From NCBI GenBank assembly GCA_027490985.1, contig JAIXXC010000205.1:1-41045 (forward strand): a stretch of 41,045 bases of DNA, read 5' to 3'. Below the pieces are notes generated by a model that was not told where the DNA came from, did no database searches, and worked only from the letters and a program-made list of their open reading frames with translations. A program made the translations under genes and the position numbers. Below are positions 14,924 to 34,732 of the stretch, in pieces. How positions within the stretch are numbered: position 1 is the stretch's first letter; the number at the start of each line of letters is the position of its first letter. This stretch comes from Verrucomicrobiales bacterium. GTDB taxonomy: Bacteria > Verrucomicrobiota > Verrucomicrobiia > Limisphaerales > UBA9464.

Positions 14924-16078
14924 TCAGCCCGGCGAAACCGCAGAAACCCCAGAAGCCGAACGGGCCACCGGGCCCACCAGCGCGTGGTGCAGGTGATGCA
15001 CCAGCGTGGCATTGTCGCATTGCAGGTACTGCATCGATCCGCCCATCCGCGAGAAGCTCTTGCAGAACCGCAGATAATAGGCGGGGTTGGTCTTGGGCGG
15101 TTCGCCCTGGGTCCAATCCCAGCCTCCCCCATCCTGCAGGTCCACCACGTAGATGGCATGACCAGACACGGGGCCTCTGCCCTGCTGGAAGCGCAGATTG
15201 TGGACGCAACTCAGGCTCTTCTCGAACACCTGCGGAGCCATGATCGCCGAGCCGATCGACAACACCACGCCCCCGTCGAGCGCCTCCACCGCGCCCGCGA
15301 AGGAGCGGAAGTCCTGGGCCGCGGCACGACCGATGACCGCCCCATTGAACATCGGGTGGCAGGAGATGATGTCGTATCCGATGCCCGGATGGACCGTCAC
15401 CGGCACCCCCAATCGCCAGGCCTGAGCCAGCAGACTGGCGTGTTTCCAGGCATGGGTCACCGAGTGCCGGCCCGCGGCCAACCCGTGGCGGGTCATGGCC
15501 GAAAGCAGTTCGCAGCAGGCTCCGGCCATGGGATCGGCCGGGAACTGCCCCACGATCTGGGCGAGGGTCTCCGGATCGGGCAAGTCGCACCCGTCTTCAT
15601 GGATGAATTTGCCCAAGGCCTGCCCGTAGCCCAACCCCTGGAGCGCCCCGGCCATGAGGGCCAGGTGAATGTTCCGGCCGGTCTCGTCCCAGGTCCCGAA
15701 GGTGCCCGCCGCGACATTCTCCTCGACCCCCTCGGTGGACCGGCCCAGCCACGCGTATTCCCAATCGTGGATCGTTCCGGCGCCATGGGTGGCCAGATGT
15801 TGGATGAACCCGGCCTCCATCAGGCCGGTCAGGAGTGGAACCGCCCCATTGCGGATCAAGTGGGCCCCGTACATGAGGATCACCGGAGCCCCGACCCGTC
15901 GGGCCGAGCGGATGGCCTCGACGAGAGCGCCCACGATCTCCGTCTGGGCCGTCGACAATGGCGCCGGGGTGCGATCGGTCGGGATCAGGATGTCTTCGAC
16001 CCGGGTCAGACTCCGACGTTCTTCCAGCGGTCGAACGCGCAACCGCATCAAATCCAAAGGGCCCGTCATTCGGATCAT
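14924..16078 (-). CDS. Deoxyhypusine-synthase-like protein lacking the catalytic lysine
   Basis: This conserved-looking 384-residue protein is not one I can name with certainty. The order of its motifs resembles deoxyhypusine synthase (DHS). LMEAGFIQHLATHGAG (86-101) matches the DHS strand ending in TTAGG. GVPVTVHPGIGYDIISCHP (224-242) matches the IPVF..D..LGDMIFFH region. LSIGSAIMAPQVFEKSL (273-289) matches ILGGG..KH.I..AN. HAIYVVDLQDGGGWDWTQGE (307-326) matches the YAVYINT.QE.DGS block. DHS has a catalytic Lys in a WGK segment shortly after; here the region reads PPKTNPAYYLRFCK, with no WGK. Bacteria lack eIF5A, so another NAD-linked activity is likely. The start is uncertain: 16078, 16069 and 16048 are all ATGs. 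The residue numbering used here assumes 16078. Confidence 0.55.
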   Translation of the reverse strand: MIRMTGPLDLMRLRVRPLEERRSLTRVEDILIPTDRTPAPLSTAQTEIVGALVEAIRSARRVGAPVILMYGAHLIRNGAVPLLTGLMEAGFIQHLATHGAGTIHDWEYAWLGRSTEGVEENVAAGTFGTWDETGRNIHLALMAGALQGLGYGQALGKFIHEDGCDLPDPETLAQIVGQFPADPMAGACCELLSAMTRHGLAAGRHSVTHAWKHASLLAQAWRLGVPVTVHPGIGYDIISCHPMFNGAVIGRAAAQDFRSFAGAVEALDGGVVLSIGSAIMAPQVFEKSLSCVHNLRFQQGRGPVSGHAIYVVDLQDGGGWDWTQGEPPKTNPAYYLRFCKSFSRMGGSMQYLQCDNATLVHHLHHALVGPVARSASGVSAVSPG

Positions 16079-16192
16079 TGGAAGACCCGACACCGGCAAT
16101 TGGAAGCCCACAATTCCGGGAGCCACACCCCTCCAGGAGCAACTCCCAGCACCGCGCACGGCGATCCGCTGGCGGGGCCCGGGTCCGGAACC

Positions 16193-17199: not shown

Positions 17200-17226
17200 T
17201 TCAGGCGTTCAAAGGTTCAGGCGTTC
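17200..17226. repeat. 11-bp direct repeat at the 3' end of hldD
   Basis: TTCAGGCGTTC occurs at 17200-17210 and 17216-17226, a 16-base period. The second copy covers the hldD stop codon, so the end of the gene has been duplicated just downstream of itself. Confidence 0.6.
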
Positions 17227-18242
17227 CGACTCATCCACGCCACATAATCGGTCACGGCCTCCTCGAGAGAGGTCGGGACATACCTCACACCGGCTCTGGC
17301 CGTCTTGGCCATGGTGGCCTGAGTGAAATACTGGTAGCGGTCGCGCAGGTCGGCCGGCATGGGGATGTACTGGATCGAGGCCGGGCGCCCGAGCGCGGCG
17401 AACGTCGCTTCGATGAGATCCCGGAAGGAGCGGGCCTGGCCGGTCCCCAGATTGAACAAGCCCGACACCTCGCGCCGTTCCGCAAACGACAGCATCACGC
17501 GCACCACATCCTTGACGTAGATGAAGTCGCGCACCTGCCCGCCGTGGGCGTAGTCGGGGCGATGGGATTCGAAGAGGCGGACGCTGCCTTCGTTGAGGAT
17601 CTGGTGATAGCCGTGCCAGACCATCGAGGCCATGCGTCCTTTGTGACCTTCTCCGGGACCGAACACGTTGAAGAACTTGAACCCGACACTTTGCACCGGC
17701 TGCGGGACGCCGAGCCGGACCTGCTCTTCGACCCAGAGGTCGAAGTCGTGCTTCGACTTGCCGTAGAGGTTCAGCGGCTTCAGTCGTGACAGCTCGAGCG
17801 TGTCATCGAAGCCATTCTCCCCGTCGCCATAGGTGGCCGCGCTCGAGGCGTACAGCAGTCGTGCGCCGTGGGCCGCCGCCCAGGTCCACAGCTTCTGGGA
17901 GTAGCCCAGGTTGTTGTCGGCGAGGTAGTTCCAGTCGGTCTCGGTCGTGGAACTGCAGGCCCCGAGGTGGAAGATCAGCTCGGGACGCAGAATCCCGGCC
18001 GTCAGGGCCTCGAGGAACTGCGTGTGAGTCAGAAAACGGACACCCCCGAAGGCCTGATCCGCCGGGCCCATGTCGGGCTTCAACGGATGATCCACCGCCA
18101 GCAGTTCCGATGCGGCATGGAGGCCGCGCAGGGTATGCAGCAATTGGCCTCCGATGAATCCGGCCGCGCCGGTGACCACGATCCGAATGGGGGGCAGTCC
18201 GAGAGAGCGGGAATTCGGGGAGGTTTCGAGGGAGGCAGGCAT
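17217..18242 (-). CDS. hldD: ADP-L-glycero-D-manno-heptose 6-epimerase
   Basis: This 341-residue extended SDR makes the L,D-heptose precursor of the LPS inner core. Marks are the Rossmann VTGAAGFIG, the heptose-epimerase block HLGACSSTTETDWNYLADNN, ASSAATYG, the active-site YGKSK (Tyr, Lys), FKFFNVFGPGEGHKGRMAS and GGQVRDFIYVKDVV, which together are specific for HldD rather than GalE. The start is uncertain. ATG at 18242 leaves about 19 extra residues before the Rossmann strand and 18272 about 29; no Shine-Dalgarno sequence decides. Together with kdsB nearby it shows that the organism makes a Kdo/heptose LPS core. It lies downstream of the sugar dehydrogenase on the same strand, 74 bases away by the chosen start. 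Confidence 0.92.
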   Translation of the reverse strand: MPASLETSPNSRSLGLPPIRIVVTGAAGFIGGQLLHTLRGLHAASELLAVDHPLKPDMGPADQAFGGVRFLTHTQFLEALTAGILRPELIFHLGACSSTTETDWNYLADNNLGYSQKLWTWAAAHGARLLYASSAATYGDGENGFDDTLELSRLKPLNLYGKSKHDFDLWVEEQVRLGVPQPVQSVGFKFFNVFGPGEGHKGRMASMVWHGYHQILNEGSVRLFESHRPDYAHGGQVRDFIYVKDVVRVMLSFAERREVSGLFNLGTGQARSFRDLIEATFAALGRPASIQYIPMPADLRDRYQYFTQATMAKTARAGVRYVPTSLEEAVTDYVAWMSRNA

Positions 18243-18316
18243 GCGTGCAGGGCGCGTTGGAGTACGAAGCATGGGCCCGAGGTGGGCCTCTGTGAAGCAG
18301 AAGGCTCCGGAGCGCC

Positions 18317-19666
18317 TCAAAGCCGCCAGTAGCGACCGGCACCCCACCCCGTGACCTGCTCAGGACTGAAGAAGCCTTTGACATCGATGAGCACCGGAGG
18401 CTCGTCGCCCCCGAGTCGGCGCAGCACATCGAGCGGATAGCCCTCGACAAGGCTCCGATGCTTAACGGCCAGGATGATGGCGTCGTATGGGGCGCCCGCC
18501 TCGGCGGCATCCGAGAGAGTCACCCCGTATTCATGAAGCACCTCGGCCGGGTCGGCATGGGGATCCACCGGCAGGCACCGCACACCGTAGCTGTCGAGTT
18601 CGGTGACGATGTCGATGACCCGGGTGTTCCGCACATCGGGCACGTTCTCTTTGAAGGTCCACCCCAGAACGAGGACCTTGGCCCCTTTGACCGGGCGCTC
18701 GGACTGGATGAGCAGCTTGACCGTCTTCTCGGCGATGAATTTGCCCATCGAGTCGTTCACCCGGCGGCCGGCCAGGATCACGTCGGGATGGTATCCCAGA
18801 CTCTCGGCCTTGAAGGCCAGGTAGTAGGGATCGACCCCGATGCAATGGCCGCCCACCAAACCGGGGCGGAACGGCAGGAAGTTCCACTTGGTTCCCGCGG
18901 CCTCCAGCACGTCGAGGGTGTTGATGCCCTGACGATCGAAGATGAGCGCCAGTTCGTTCATCAGGGCGATGTTCAGATCGCGCTGGGTGTTCTCGATCAC
19001 CTTGGCGGCCTCGGCCGTCTTGAGGGTCGGGGCCACATGGATGCCCGCGGTGATCACCGTTCCGTAGATGCCGGCGACCAGCTGGGCCGTGGCCGGCAGA
19101 TCACCGGCAACGACTTTCTTGATCTTCTCGACGGTGTGCTCGCGATCGCCGGGATTGATCCGCTCCGGCGAGTAGCCGGCGAAGAATTCCTTGCGCCAGG
19201 TCAGGCCGCTCTCCCGCTCGATCACGGGGATGCAGTCCTCTTCGGTGCATCCCGGATACACCGTCGATTCGAACACCACGACGGTTCCGGCCTCCAGATG
19301 GCGACCGATCAAGGTGGAGGCCTTGACCAACGGCGTCAGGTCGGGGCGATGGTGCGCATCGATCGGGGTCGGGACCGTGACCACGATGAATCGGGAACGG
19401 GCGATGGCCGACGGGTCGGTGGTGAACTCGATCGGATGCCGGTGCAACTGGTCCGGGGTCAGTTCCAGGGTGCGGTCGTGACCCGCCTGCAGCTCCCGAA
19501 CCCGGACCGGATTGATATCGAATCCCAGGACCCGGAAACGGGAGGCGAAGGCCACCGCCAGAGGCAGTCCGACATAGCCCAAACCGATCACGCAAATCGA
19601 CTCCCGCCGATCGGTGAACGCCTCCAGCAACGGCAGCGGGCGCGCTTGGGTCTGGTCTGGGTTCAT
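18317..19666 (-). CDS. Nucleotide-sugar (UDP-N-acetylhexosamine-type) 6-dehydrogenase, WbpO/TviB-like
   Basis: This 449-residue enzyme of the UDP-glucose/UDP-ManNAc dehydrogenase family oxidises C6 of a UDP-sugar to the uronic acid with two NAD+. Features are the Rossmann ICVIGLGYVGLPLAVAFA, VTVPTPID, FESTVYPGCTEEDC, the FFAGYSPERINPGDREH block and the catalytic cysteine in GGHCIGVDPYYL. FRPGLVGGHCIG, ending TKWNFLPF before it, and the C-terminal LGWTFKENVPDVRNTRV are typical of the WbpO/TviB/WbpA group acting on UDP-N-acetylhexosamines. The ATG at 19666 is preferred to a TTG at 19681. A WbpP-like epimerase lies at 13142-14080, and together they could make UDP-GalNAcA for O-antigen or capsule. 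It lies 32 bases downstream of smc. Confidence 0.88.
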   Translation of the reverse strand: MNPDQTQARPLPLLEAFTDRRESICVIGLGYVGLPLAVAFASRFRVLGFDINPVRVRELQAGHDRTLELTPDQLHRHPIEFTTDPSAIARSRFIVVTVPTPIDAHHRPDLTPLVKASTLIGRHLEAGTVVVFESTVYPGCTEEDCIPVIERESGLTWRKEFFAGYSPERINPGDREHTVEKIKKVVAGDLPATAQLVAGIYGTVITAGIHVAPTLKTAEAAKVIENTQRDLNIALMNELALIFDRQGINTLDVLEAAGTKWNFLPFRPGLVGGHCIGVDPYYLAFKAESLGYHPDVILAGRRVNDSMGKFIAEKTVKLLIQSERPVKGAKVLVLGWTFKENVPDVRNTRVIDIVTELDSYGVRCLPVDPHADPAEVLHEYGVTLSDAAEAGAPYDAIILAVKHRSLVEGYPLDVLRRLGGDEPPVLIDVKGFFSPEQVTGWGAGRYWRL

Positions 19667-19698
19667 CTGGGTCGTGTTCAAGGGTCGATCGGGAAACG

Positions 19699-29464: not shown

Positions 29465-32400
29465 ATGGACCGTACCAACCTCGCCCCAGGCCGACTGATC
29501 CGTCTCTTGCGTCTGGGGGTCGCCCTCATTGCCGGCTTCGGTCTCGCCAGCCGCTCGATCGCTCTCGAGATCGTCCGCCCGCCCACCTCCCAGACGATCT
29601 TCCTGGGCGACCCGGTGAGCTTCCGTGTCGAGGCCCGGGGTGAACCGCCCCTCCAATACCGCTGGCTGCGCAACGGCAAACCGATGGAAGGGGTGTCCGG
29701 CCCCGATTGGACCTTCGTCACTTCAGCCGCGGATCACGACGCGACGATCACCGTCGAGGTCATCGACAGCACCCTCCGACTCACAAGCCCAGCCGCCCGG
29801 TTGACCATCGATCCTGGGCTTCCGGGTGCCTATCGGACCAATCGCCTGGTCGAGGTCGTCCACCCGTGGCAATACCGAGTGGACGGCGTGCTGCCCCACC
29901 CGCAGTGGCCAGTATGGAGCGATGCCAGCACCGGGTGGACCAACGGCGCCGGCGTGCTGTACGTCGAAGATGCCGAGCTTCCCGGCCCCAAGACGACCCT
30001 GCTGCCGGCGGCCGCCGGGAAGCTGCCCACGACGGCCTACTTCCGGACCACCTTTGTCAACCCGATCACCAACGCCCACTCCATCGAACTGGTCGCGAGC
30101 CTGCTGGTCGACGACGGAGCGCTGGTATTCCTCAACGGCTCCGAGGTCCAGCGCCTCGGCTTGGACGAAGGCACGGTGCTGCCGACCACCCAGGCCAGCC
30201 GGAGTGTCGGAAATGCCGCTTGGGAGGGTCCTTTCCCCTGGGCGGCCACCGGCCTGAAGCCGGGGACCAACGCGCTGTCCGTCGAGGTACACCAGTCGGG
30301 CACCGCCAGTTCCGACCTGGTGTGGGGACTCGTCCTCGATGCGGTCTGGCAGGAGCGGGTGCGCGATACGCTGGCCCCGAAGGTGGTCTCCGTCACACCG
30401 CCGCTCGGGTCCACCGTCGGGGCGGCGCCTCGACTCGAGGTCCTCTTCACCGAACCGGTCCAAGGCGTCACGGCCTCCGCCCTCCGACTCAACGGAGTGC
30501 CGGCCACGGTCGTGACTGAATTGAGCGCCAACCGCTACGCCTTCGATTTCGCCTCTGCTCCGGCAGGCACCGTTGCGCTGGCTTGGTCGACAGAACCCGG
30601 AATCACCGACCGTTCGGCCGGCGCGAACCGCCTCGACACCCGAAGTTTCTCGAACCCGGTCGAACCGGCGATCCCAGCCACCCGACTGGCCTTCGCCTCG
30701 GTAGGCCAGTCCAGCGACGCCTCCACCGACACCGCCGCGACGTTGGCCATCGACAATCGGGAGACCACCAGCAGCCGGACCGCCGATCTGCCTGGCAGCC
30801 ACTGGTGGGGACACCTGTCGCGCATCCACCGCTTGCAGCGCGTCGAGGGCGTCCAACCGGCCGCACCCGACGACGCACTCGGCCGGGGCTGCGTGCTGCG
30901 CCTCCTCCGCATGGACGACCAGGTGGTGTTCGAACAAGACCTGCCCGACGTCGGACCGGGCGGCACTTGGACCATCGACCTGCCGGCCGGGGTCATGGCC
31001 CGTACCGTCTGGATCGGACTCCCCGGCGAGCGAACCAACGGACGCGGCACCCGTCAGGTCGCCGTGGCCGAGATCCGCGTATCCGGGGTGCCGGATATCC
31101 CGTTCGGACCGCCGCCCCCGGTGACGGGGACGCCGCTCGACCGGTTGGTGGTCTCGAACAACCTGGCGTCCTTCAAACGCAGCACGATGCTGCGACTCAC
31201 CGATGGCCTCGCCCCGGCCGCCCGGGCCAACGACGACAAAGCCTCCACCGAGACCAAAACCACGGAACGGACGGTCGACGGCTACTGGGAGGTCGATCTT
31301 GGAGGCACCTTCGCCCTTCATGGCATCCGTACCATCGCCGCTTCCGGCATCGGCGGACGTCTCACCAACGCCACGGTCCGACTCTTCGACGAACAGCATG
31401 ACTCGGTCTTTTCCCGGAGGATTTCCGGCCGCCCCGACACCTTCGACACCGACTTCGGCGGGCCGGTCTTCGCGAGATATGTGCGGGTCGGGCTCGAGGA
31501 CAAGCGGCGGACGGACCCGGGCGGCGGCATCGAGTGGTACATCGGCTTCCGCGAGGTGGCCGTGTTCGGTCGACCCACCAACGAGGTCGGCATCCTGAGC
31601 TTCGAAGCCGATGCCAGCACGACCGGATCGACCCAACGAACCCTGTCGTGGCAGGTCGAGGACGTGCTCCGGTTGGAGCTGCATCCCAGCGTGGGCTCGG
31701 TGGGTTCACTCACTTCGGCCGACGGAAAGGGTCTGGTCCGGTTGACGCCTGCGCGGTCCACCGAGTACCTGCTCGTGGCCTCCAACACCGCCGGAATCTT
31801 CGTGCGCGCCGCCTCGGTGGAGGTCCCGGGTTCGTCTCTGTCGGTGGGCCTCGACGAGTTGGTCGCGGCCAATCGCTTTTCGTTGGCCACCGCCTCGGGC
31901 GACGCCACCGATTGGATCGAGCTCCGCAACCCGGGCAATCAGCCCGTGGACCTCGCAGGGTGGAGCCTGAGCGACGATCCGACCAAACCGCGCAAGTGGA
32001 CCTTCCCCCGTTGGGTGCTTGAACCGCACCAGTCGCGGGTCGTCTTCGCCTCGGGCAGCGACCGAGGCCTCGACGCGTCAGGCGACCTGCACGTGGGCTT
32101 CCGGCTGTCCCGGGCCGGCGGCACCTTGTTGCTCGTGCCGCCCGCCGCCTCGGGCGAGCCGCTGCAGCGGGTCGACTACCCCGCCCTTGGCGATGACCTC
32201 GCCTACGGCCGCGATCTGGCCGGCCAATGGCGGATGCTCGACCCGACTCCGGGCCGCCCGAACGTGGCTGCTGCCCACCAGGGATGGGTCCGCCAGCCCG
32301 ACTGGAGCCACAACCGGGGATTCCACGAGAGTCCCTTCCGCTTGTTGCTCACCGCCCCCGACCCCGATGCGACCATCCTCTATTCGACCAACGGGACCGA

Positions 32401-34732
32401 GCCGAGCCTCGTCTATTCCAACGGCCTGGATGTGGCGCGGACGATGTCCGTCCGCGCCCGTGCGGTCCGCCCCGGCGCCCGCCCCTCCCCGGTGCAGACG
32501 CGCACCTTCGTGTTCATCGAGAGTGTGGTCGCCGCGCCGTCGATGAACCGCACGATCACCCAGAATGCCGCCCTGGCCGCACGACTCCGAACCGGCCTGC
32601 GGGCGATCCCCACCATCGCGCTGTCGCTGCCCGGGCAGCCCGAGTACCAAGAGAAACCGGGGTCCTTTGAGATCCTCTGGCCCGACGGTCGGCCGTCGGT
32701 GCACGTCAACTGCGGCCTCTCCCGCTTCGGCAATGCCTGGACCTCGTTCGACAAGCGCAGCTTCCGGGTCAAGTGCCGCAACCGATACGGCGACGACGCG
32801 ATCCGGGCGCCCCTGTTCGACGGTTTCGACCACGGGACGACTCCGGTCCGTTCCTTCGACGAGCTCGACCTGCGATCCGGCTCTCACGACATGTCCGAGC
32901 GCGGCTTCTACATGGCCGGCCGATTCGTCGAGGACAGCATGCTCGACATGGGCAGCCTCAATCCCCATGGCCGCTTCGTGCACGTGTACGTCAACGGGGC
33001 CTACTGGGGGCAGTACGACTGCCGGGAGTTGCTCTCGGAGCGCTTCCTCGCCGACTACCTGGGTGGATCGCGCAACGACTACGGGGCGGTCATGGGCAAC
33101 GACAACGTGACCGACGATTTTGTCATCGGTGCCCCGGAGCCGCCCAACCTCGACCCCTGGGAGCGCGCCCGCGCCGACCGGAACAGCTATCAGCGGGTCC
33201 GCACCCGGCTCGACGTGGCCCACCTCATCGACTTCATGCTGCTCTGGACCTACGGCGACTGCGAGTCGGAATTCCGGAGCTGCGGCCCGCTTGAACCCGG
33301 CACCGGGTTCAAGTTCTGGATCGCCGACGCCGACGGCTTCTTGCGCACCAGCGCGCTCAACCTCAACCGGACCGACCGCGAAGGGCCCGGAGGGTTCTTC
33401 GGATCGCTGATCCGCGAGGGGAATCCAGATTTCCGCACCCTCTTGGCCGATCGAATCCATCGCCACTTCTTCAACGACGGCGCGATGACCCCGGCGGCCT
33501 TGGAAACCCGTCTCAATCTTCGCATGCGCGAGATCGCCGACAGCCTTGTGGCCGAGTCGGCCCGGTGGAACCAGCGCACACCGGCCTCGTGGGAAGGCGC
33601 TGCCGCCACGATCCGCACGCAGTTGTTCCCACGGCGCACGGCCACCCTGCTGGGCCAACTGCGCGCCCGGGGCCTGTACCCCAACTTCGACCCGCCGAAA
33701 TTCGATGTACGGGGAGGCACCGTCGCGTCGGGGTTCCGCCCGCAGCTCAGCGCACCCTCGGGCACCATCTTCTACACGCTCGACGGCAGCGATCCGCGGC
33801 TGCCCGGCGGGGCCGTCTCACCGACCGCAAAACTCTGGGCCGCCGACGCGCTGACGGTGGAGTCGGACCTGACCGTCACCACCCGCGTCCGTTCTTCGTC
33901 CGGCGCTTGGTCCGCCGTGGACGCCGCGACGTTCCGAATGCGCGCGCCGCGCCCACCAGGACCCGGCGACCTATTGCCCGTCGAGATCCACTACAACCCC
34001 TCGACCGGCGGCGAGTCCGAGTTCATCGAGTTGCGCAACACGACCGCCGACCCGCTCGACCTCTCACGCTGCACCTTGTCCGACGACGTCAGCCTGGTGT
34101 TCCCGAACGCGACCGTGGTGGCCCCCGGCGGATCTCTGGTCGCGGTGCGCGACCCGATCGCCTTCGCCGCCCGCTACCTGGCACCCGGCTCGGCCGGCGC
34201 CCGGGCAGGCATCCGCACGGTGGGACCGTGGGTCGGGGCATTGAACAACTCCGGCGAGCGCATCGCCCTGCTCGGAGCCGATGGCGTGGAACTCTGGTCG
34301 GTGACCTACGGCACCCAGGCCCCCTGGCCGGTACGCGCCGATGGGGACGGTCGCTCGCTGGTACTGGCCGAGCCCTCCAGCCCACCCACCACGCGGGATG
34401 CCATCAATGCCTACCTGGCCGACGGTCGACGATGGTTCCCGAGCCTCGCCGACCACGGCACTCCAGGGTGGACGGACCCGTTCCGGGCCTCGGTGACGGT
34501 GACCCCGGATGGACCCGAGCTCCAGTGGCCCGCCGTCTCCGGCGAGAGCTACCGCGTCGAGTCCACCGAGCGCCTGGCCGACCCTCTCTGGAGGGTTGTC
34601 GAACAGGGACCGGCACCCCGCGACGAGATCCGTCGTCGCCCCTTGCTGCCGGCCCCATCACCCGGATCGCCCGCCGGAGCCGACCCATTGGCCGACCCGG
34701 CGCGCTTCTACCGGGTTCTTTGGATCCGGTGA
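29465..34732 (+). CDS. Giant modular secreted protein with lamin-tail (LTD), discoidin-like and CotH domains
   Basis: This is a 1755-residue protein. Approximate order: signal peptide 1-34; Ig-like domain 35-115 (FLGDPVSFRVEARGEPPLQY); a jelly-roll region about 130-300 (TAYFRTTFVN); a Big_5/SbsA-type Ig-like domain about 305-400 (VVSVTPPLGSTV); two discoidin/galactose-binding-like regions about 405-560 and 570-715; first LTD about 794-940 (ATDWIELRNPGNQPVDLAGW); chitobiase C-terminal-type domain about 950-1020 (ATILYSTNGTEPS); CotH-type region about 1025-1390 (ELDLRSGSHDMSERGFYMAG, VHVYVNGAYWGQYDCRELL, FKFWIADADGF); second chitobiase-type domain about 1410-1490 (TIFYTLDGSDPR); second LTD about 1500-1640 (ESEFIELRNTTADPLDLSRC); C-terminal beta domain about 1660-1755. 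CotH proteins are secretory-pathway kinases in spores, but this arrangement is typical of PVC surface proteins of unknown role. The start at 29465 lacks a ribosome binding site. No anchor is recognisable. Confidence 0.85.
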   Translation: MDRTNLAPGRLIRLLRLGVALIAGFGLASRSIALEIVRPPTSQTIFLGDPVSFRVEARGEPPLQYRWLRNGKPMEGVSGPDWTFVTSAADHDATITVEVIDSTLRLTSPAARLTIDPGLPGAYRTNRLVEVVHPWQYRVDGVLPHPQWPVWSDASTGWTNGAGVLYVEDAELPGPKTTLLPAAAGKLPTTAYFRTTFVNPITNAHSIELVASLLVDDGALVFLNGSEVQRLGLDEGTVLPTTQASRSVGNAAWEGPFPWAATGLKPGTNALSVEVHQSGTASSDLVWGLVLDAVWQERVRDTLAPKVVSVTPPLGSTVGAAPRLEVLFTEPVQGVTASALRLNGVPATVVTELSANRYAFDFASAPAGTVALAWSTEPGITDRSAGANRLDTRSFSNPVEPAIPATRLAFASVGQSSDASTDTAATLAIDNRETTSSRTADLPGSHWWGHLSRIHRLQRVEGVQPAAPDDALGRGCVLRLLRMDDQVVFEQDLPDVGPGGTWTIDLPAGVMARTVWIGLPGERTNGRGTRQVAVAEIRVSGVPDIPFGPPPPVTGTPLDRLVVSNNLASFKRSTMLRLTDGLAPAARANDDKASTETKTTERTVDGYWEVDLGGTFALHGIRTIAASGIGGRLTNATVRLFDEQHDSVFSRRISGRPDTFDTDFGGPVFARYVRVGLEDKRRTDPGGGIEWYIGFREVAVFGRPTNEVGILSFEADASTTGSTQRTLSWQVEDVLRLELHPSVGSVGSLTSADGKGLVRLTPARSTEYLLVASNTAGIFVRAASVEVPGSSLSVGLDELVAANRFSLATASGDATDWIELRNPGNQPVDLAGWSLSDDPTKPRKWTFPRWVLEPHQSRVVFASGSDRGLDASGDLHVGFRLSRAGGTLLLVPPAASGEPLQRVDYPALGDDLAYGRDLAGQWRMLDPTPGRPNVAAAHQGWVRQPDWSHNRGFHESPFRLLLTAPDPDATILYSTNGTEPSLVYSNGLDVARTMSVRARAVRPGARPSPVQTRTFVFIESVVAAPSMNRTITQNAALAARLRTGLRAIPTIALSLPGQPEYQEKPGSFEILWPDGRPSVHVNCGLSRFGNAWTSFDKRSFRVKCRNRYGDDAIRAPLFDGFDHGTTPVRSFDELDLRSGSHDMSERGFYMAGRFVEDSMLDMGSLNPHGRFVHVYVNGAYWGQYDCRELLSERFLADYLGGSRNDYGAVMGNDNVTDDFVIGAPEPPNLDPWERARADRNSYQRVRTRLDVAHLIDFMLLWTYGDCESEFRSCGPLEPGTGFKFWIADADGFLRTSALNLNRTDREGPGGFFGSLIREGNPDFRTLLADRIHRHFFNDGAMTPAALETRLNLRMREIADSLVAESARWNQRTPASWEGAAATIRTQLFPRRTATLLGQLRARGLYPNFDPPKFDVRGGTVASGFRPQLSAPSGTIFYTLDGSDPRLPGGAVSPTAKLWAADALTVESDLTVTTRVRSSSGAWSAVDAATFRMRAPRPPGPGDLLPVEIHYNPSTGGESEFIELRNTTADPLDLSRCTLSDDVSLVFPNATVVAPGGSLVAVRDPIAFAARYLAPGSAGARAGIRTVGPWVGALNNSGERIALLGADGVELWSVTYGTQAPWPVRADGDGRSLVLAEPSSPPTTRDAINAYLADGRRWFPSLADHGTPGWTDPFRASVTVTPDGPELQWPAVSGESYRVESTERLADPLWRVVEQGPAPRDEIRRRPLLPAPSPGSPAGADPLADPARFYRVLWIR

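Follow-up and report, generated by a model that had tools for sequence, protein, structure and literature searches.

A GSU2086-family protein with a predicted deoxyhypusine synthase-type fold and its probable role in heptose-type sugar-phosphate metabolism

Introduction

What would a bacterial protein do if it followed the block order of deoxyhypusine synthase (DHS) and had no lysine to offer for catalysis? The question is raised by a gene on a 41,045-nucleotide contig of a Verrucomicrobiales bacterium (GenBank assembly GCA_027490985.1, contig JAIXXC010000205.1), the whole of which is called the window in this article. DHS uses NAD catalytically, in that its substrate is oxidised, a group is moved by way of a lysine imine, and the product is re-reduced (PMC7780104); in the human enzyme the butylimine intermediate is carried by Lys329 (PMC7780104). 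The sections below consider the gene and its family, the predicted fold, the invariant residues, and the genes found beside relatives of the window gene, which together point to sugar chemistry. The new element is a DHS-fold enzyme tied to heptose-type sugar-phosphate genes, the family name itself being already in NCBIfam. In the collection of papers searched, nothing joined DHS with heptose, or ornithine with the nickel-pincer nucleotide.

The gene and its family

Positions 14924 to 16078 form one open frame of 384 residues on the minus strand, which the original prediction had not named, and the feature is defined by the open reading frame call, with its ATG start at 16078, and by a match to the NCBIfam model NF052581. 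An in-frame GTG at 16159 is a less likely start, because the homologs begin near 16078. Among 59 genomes close to that of the window, 55 have a homolog, and the GTDB collection has homologs in 279 stretches, from records labeled Verrucomicrobia, Planctomycetes, Acidobacteria, and Lentisphaerae. A Chloroflexota bacterium and Solidesulfovibrio carry homologs on plasmids as well. The dN/dS ratio of the window gene is 0.04–0.1 against close relatives (dN 0.05–0.07 and dS 0.7–1.7 for the closest) and 0.13–0.15 against more distant ones. This wide occurrence and the low ratios establish a real gene under strong purifying selection.

By its sequence match (334 bits against a cut-off of 250, with residues 7–365 aligned to profile positions 1–300), the protein is a member of NF052581, the "GSU2086 family protein", a named and uncharacterised family that takes its name from GSU2086 of Geobacter sulfurreducens and for no member of which the literature yielded any biochemistry. 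Within this family the window protein falls into a subfamily of longer proteins, distinguished by an extra segment at about residues 168–210 and by the block DGGGWDWTQGEPP.

The predicted fold

An AlphaFold2 model of the window protein, computed from 52 family sequences, reached a mean pLDDT of 90.4 and a pTM of 0.89. The closest solved fold is the C-terminal NAD domain of AgrE/ArgZ (VIA Z 19.2, rmsd 3.6, 221 residues aligned), and AgrE solved with ornithine and NAD+ follows at VIA Z 18.9, then MMP1218 (3c2q) at Z 17.7. Deoxyhypusine synthases match at VIA Z 16–17 over about 250 residues with an rmsd of about 4.1, and the human DHS–NAD complex in particular gives VIA Z 16.6, rmsd 4.1, and 254 aligned residues. 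Foldseek returned E values of about 1e-6 to 1e-5 for the same top structures (AgrE/ArgZ, MMP1218, and DHS), with DHS at about 1e-5. The DHS-like fold that had been proposed from sequence alone is thus borne out by the model, by Foldseek, and by VIA, the model with its pLDDT of 90 matching DHS at Z 16–17. As far as a predicted model allows, the DHS/ornithine-cyclodeaminase fold of the GSU2086-family protein is confirmed, with AgrE/ArgZ slightly nearer to the model than DHS, although a common fold by itself proves no function. An NAD-binding cleft in GSU2086 proteins is likely by analogy, because NAD is present in matched structures of both human DHS and AgrE, the latter holding ornithine and NAD+.

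The HMM–HMM comparison with DHS (HHalign) aligned only the N-terminal Rossmann part and the SLLAQA..VPVTVHPG segment, and left the region of K340, the lysine discussed below, unaligned. With AgrE/ArgZ, the window protein has in common a first-half pattern ending in GNAxAxHDxE or NGAGTIHDWE; however, it lacks the dihydrolase domain, lies in a sugar-gene context, and stays below the cut-offs of both PF21570, the Rossmann domain of ArgZ (20.6 bits against 27), and TIGR00300, ornithine cyclodeaminase (15.6 bits against 410.8).

Conserved blocks and the invariant lysines

All three blocks quoted in the original prediction are present in the protein, namely THGAGTIHDWEYAW at residues 97–110, DGGGWDWTQGEPP at 316–328, and PPKTNPAYYLRFCK at 327–340. 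Their conservation was scored over 54 aligned family members, which include the 320-residue members from two other phyla (Chloroflexota and Solidesulfovibrio, at 37–39% identity). The invariant residues comprise K340, K287, H73, H104, D105, E107, H230, D236, and H241, and exactly two lysines, K287 and K340, are among them. The view that these blocks are conserved features of the protein's own holds for THGAGTIHDWEYAW (15749–15790, minus strand), which lies in the first Rossmann half, is near-invariant in the family alignment with H104, D105, and E107 invariant, and aligns with TTAGGVEED of DHS and GNAIAVHDIE of ArgZ. The block DGGGWDWTQGEPP (15095–15133, minus strand), in the loop after the last-but-one strand, is characteristic of the long subfamily and mostly absent from the short 320-residue members.

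Moreover, the absence of a catalytic lysine, the central point of the original prediction, is probably wrong, as all 54 aligned members (54 of 54) keep both K340 and K287. The segment PPKTNPAYYLRFCK, taken earlier as a replacement of the WGK segment without a lysine, in fact ends in K340 (15059–15061, minus strand, in AYYLRFCK), so that the WGK of DHS becomes FCK in the window protein, and the short members have RPWK or RPYK at this point. K340 is placed by the model between the strand 308–313 and the strand 348–353, the latter followed by the last helix, and its surroundings repeat the DHS order of strand, WGK helix, strand, and helix. The aligned range to Pyrococcus horikoshii DHS ends with residue 371 on 336, which, if continued without gaps, places D355 on the conserved Asp D320; the lysine precedes this Asp by 15 residues in the window protein (K340 and D355) and by 13 in DHS. 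Since the order of secondary structure agrees with these ranges and spacings, K340 is, as inferred from the model, likely to equal DHS Lys329 within one or two residues, which makes it a candidate for the topological slot of the catalytic lysine. For a model of the protein cut at residue 342, the alignment ended at a discordant position (342 on human 320), but residues 337–342 have a pLDDT below 50 in that model. The second invariant lysine, K287 (15218–15220, minus strand), falls in GSAIMAPQVFEK, which takes the place of the GGG..KHH motif in the region corresponding to GGGVVKHH of DHS.

A lysine in the WGK slot together with the common fold could suggest a true DHS or a homospermidine-synthase-like enzyme, which would transfer an aminoalkyl group through a lysine imine. 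We regard this as very improbable: the Pfam profile search gave no match of the window protein to PF01916 (DS) at E ≤ 1, the homospermidine biosynthesis model NF001980 scores 13.3 bits against a cut-off of 450, the neighboring genes are sugar genes, and the same genome encodes a separate PF01916 protein (233 bits) with an SWGK motif. That the window protein serves as the cell's DHS is ruled out by the missing DS match and by this separate protein. The gene for the latter lies on another contig (C127; locus L112:1333-2556, minus strand), and the protein carries the motif AVSWGK.

Likewise, a non-catalytic protein that binds NAD or a metabolite and regulates the neighboring pathway would fit the facts that no reaction is known for the family and that some members are solitary. 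However, the polar residues that stay invariant from phylum to phylum number about 15, with two lysines and four histidines among them; they suit an active site better, and a purely regulatory protein is accordingly hard to credit.

Gene neighborhood in relatives

The neighborhood was surveyed in 80 GTDB loci, of which 76 had enough downstream flank and 75 enough upstream flank. In 52 of the 76, the next gene downstream, on the same strand, encodes an HldE-type PfkB kinase, and in 37 of the 75 the gene immediately upstream encodes a HAD phosphatase, with both present in 32 loci; when the window's own close relatives are excluded, the figures become 52/68 for PfkB and 37/68 for HAD. At one locus (L082) the PfkB gene is about 6 kb off instead of adjacent, and some GSU2086 members stand alone, without the genes of this module.

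The arrangement varies around the same set of functions. Four loci (L070, L078, L079, and L087) have a gene for a GmhA-like SIS protein ahead of that for the HAD, and in the first of them the order is SIS-HAD-GSU2086-PfkB. The Chloroflexota plasmid has HAD-GSU2086-PfkB-SIS, and the Solidesulfovibrio plasmid nucleotidyltransferase/PfkB-GSU2086-SIS, while another genome of the phylum has genes for a glycosyltransferase, a GmhB-like HAD, an SIS, a PMT-like protein, and a nucleotidyltransferase/PfkB together with GSU2086. In one case (L159:8507-10414) HAD and PfkB are fused into a single protein of 635 residues encoded beside the GSU2086 gene. In three other genomes (G172, G200, and G203) the HAD likewise lies within long frames. 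A fusion of SIS and HAD, suspected from long open reading frames at L070 and L078, was ruled out, the hits being in different frames and hence in adjacent genes.

The best models for the partner proteins are TIGR02198 (HldE kinase), TIGR00441 (GmhA), and TIGR02199 (HldE nucleotidyltransferase), and because all scores are below the equivalog cut-offs, the module resembles the ADP-heptose pathway and need not equal it. Of the 16 phylum genomes that carry GSU2086, 7 have a HAD of this kind (E < 1e-40), as against 0 of the 20 that lack GSU2086; the Fisher p of 0.0014 for this contrast is optimistic because the 36 genomes are related rather than independent.

The prototype from Geobacter sulfurreducens has a comparable setting, in which locus-tag order puts GSU2086 between hldE (GSU2085) and gmhA (GSU2087) (PMC5585712). 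The authors of that study place GSU2086 in an operon for sugar biosynthesis and call its product a hypothetical cytoplasmic protein, and their Tn-seq experiment on growth with electrodes gave values of −3.1 for GSU2085 (hldE), −3.2 for GSU2086, and −3.7 for GSU2087 (gmhA) (PMC5585712). These similar defects could include polar effects within the operon.

In several related genera a pair of genes for a Gfo/Idh/MocA dehydrogenase and a HAD precedes the GSU2086 gene (e.g., at L049 and L043). Because this same pair recurs, the module may include the dehydrogenase as well. The dehydrogenase is inositol-dehydrogenase-like and adjoins the HAD gene in several relatives, as it does in the window's own genome, there on a separate contig; the nearest fold to the model, moreover, is the ornithine cyclodeaminase half of AgrE/ArgZ. 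Both would fit an NAD-dependent cyclase that makes a carbocycle or another ring from a sugar phosphate, in the manner of ornithine cyclodeaminase. Gfo/Idh/MocA proteins, however, are very broad in substrate, and an SIS protein and an HldE-type kinase are not known as usual partners of cyclitol synthases, which leaves such a cyclase quite unlikely.

The window and the genome it belongs to

The window gene is flanked by a tRNA-Arg gene, a pirin-like gene, and a gene for a sugar epimerase, and, unlike in most relatives, it is not adjacent to a heptose-type kinase, phosphatase, or isomerase gene; it also stands outside any hldE/gmhA operon, which sets it apart from GSU2086 of Geobacter. The PfkB homolog of this genome is on a separate contig (C286) and the HAD homolog on another (C122; L136:7257-9120, minus strand), where the gene directly before it is that of the Gfo/Idh/MocA dehydrogenase; this HAD has only 42% identity to the GSU2086-linked form. 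In the window's lineage, then, the module is scattered.

In addition, the genome has the genes of a canonical heptose pathway. The window itself encodes an ADP-heptose 6-epimerase (HldD) of the canonical type at 17217–18347 on the minus strand (TIGR02197, 342 bits against a cut-off of 274.6), which lies near the window gene, any functional link between the two being conjectural. On other contigs there are an HldE kinase of the canonical type, together with a homolog of GmhB (C58), and an HldE nucleotidyltransferase domain (C5). Given this canonical set of HldE kinase, GmhB, and HldD, the GSU2086 module appears to form a second pathway alongside it. With the Escherichia coli GmhA as query, the genome gave no match, which does not imply absence, as matches to the SIS_2 family are present.

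These genes also bear on whether GSU2086 is an unrelated replacement of HldD, that is, an NAD-dependent epimerase acting, for example, at C6 of the heptose and completing a GmhA-HldE-GmhB set. HldD is an extended SDR, a fold class different from that of the window protein; what the two may have in common is a role in a heptose-type pathway and redox-neutral NAD(P) chemistry. The modules do hold GmhA-, HldE-, and GmhB-like functions, with an epimerase as the enzyme type not represented, and among the 22 GSU2086-positive genomes an HldD above the cut-off is absent from 15, the HldE nucleotidyltransferase domain being present in nearly all. The remaining 7 of 22, however, have a full-score HldD, among them the genome of the window and the two with the most Geobacter-like modules (G114 and G220), and this co-occurrence weakens a plain replacement; in the Chloroflexota module, moreover, no nucleotidyltransferase is annotated. 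Such a replacement is unlikely, if somewhat less so than the cyclase.

Proposed function

The window protein is probably an enzyme of the DHS/ornithine-cyclodeaminase fold that depends on NAD, catalyses a redox-neutral reaction, and works in a heptose-type sugar-phosphate pathway. This reading takes the family, the predicted fold, the invariant residues, and the neighborhood from the results above and the Tn-seq values from the literature, and from these we infer the use of NAD, the role of K340, and the class of substrate. The pathway role is probable because the relatives lie in operons with heptose-type enzymes. The earlier suggestion that it could be an NAD-dependent enzyme is still a fair one, and it is incomplete in that the protein is a member of NF052581 whose relatives stand beside heptose-type sugar-phosphate genes.

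In the proposed mechanism, NAD would be bound in the cleft between the two Rossmann-like halves, and NAD+ would transiently oxidise the substrate. The invariant K340, perhaps with K287, would act as a base or as a Schiff-base partner, and the hydride would be returned to the product, leaving the reaction redox-neutral overall. Ornithine cyclodeaminase, which has the same fold, is likewise redox-neutral overall. The substrate would most likely be a sugar phosphate or an activated sugar produced by the heptose-type module, i.e., by the GmhA-like SIS isomerase, the HldE-type PfkB kinase, and the HAD phosphatase, and the candidate reaction types are epimerisation, isomerisation, or cyclisation (ring closure).

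More tentatively, and as a possibility to which we give rather less weight, the DHS/ornithine-cyclodeaminase fold may have been recruited to sugar chemistry, with GSU2086 catalysing a step that depends on a lysine and on NAD, as part of a second and paralogous heptose-type pathway of the Planctomycetes-Verrucomicrobia, Geobacter-type bacteria, Acidobacteria, and Chloroflexota. If so, the DHS fold would extend from amines to sugars, and many environmental bacteria, electrode-respiring Geobacter included, would have an extra step in a sugar pathway. Taken together, the neighborhood and the Geobacter Tn-seq values give the GSU2086 family a concrete and testable role.

Other observations

Several MAG records titled Akkermansia muciniphila (L022, L032, L042, L044, and others) encode proteins 62–92% identical to that of the window, and their species labels look doubtful, the records being interleaved with others titled Verrucomicrobiales. 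Elsewhere in the window, the canonical HldD gene lies beside a UDP-sugar dehydrogenase gene (17217–19681, minus strand), and positions 29465–34732 hold an open reading frame of 1755 residues with lamin-tail and chitobiase-type domains, which probably encodes a large secreted protein.
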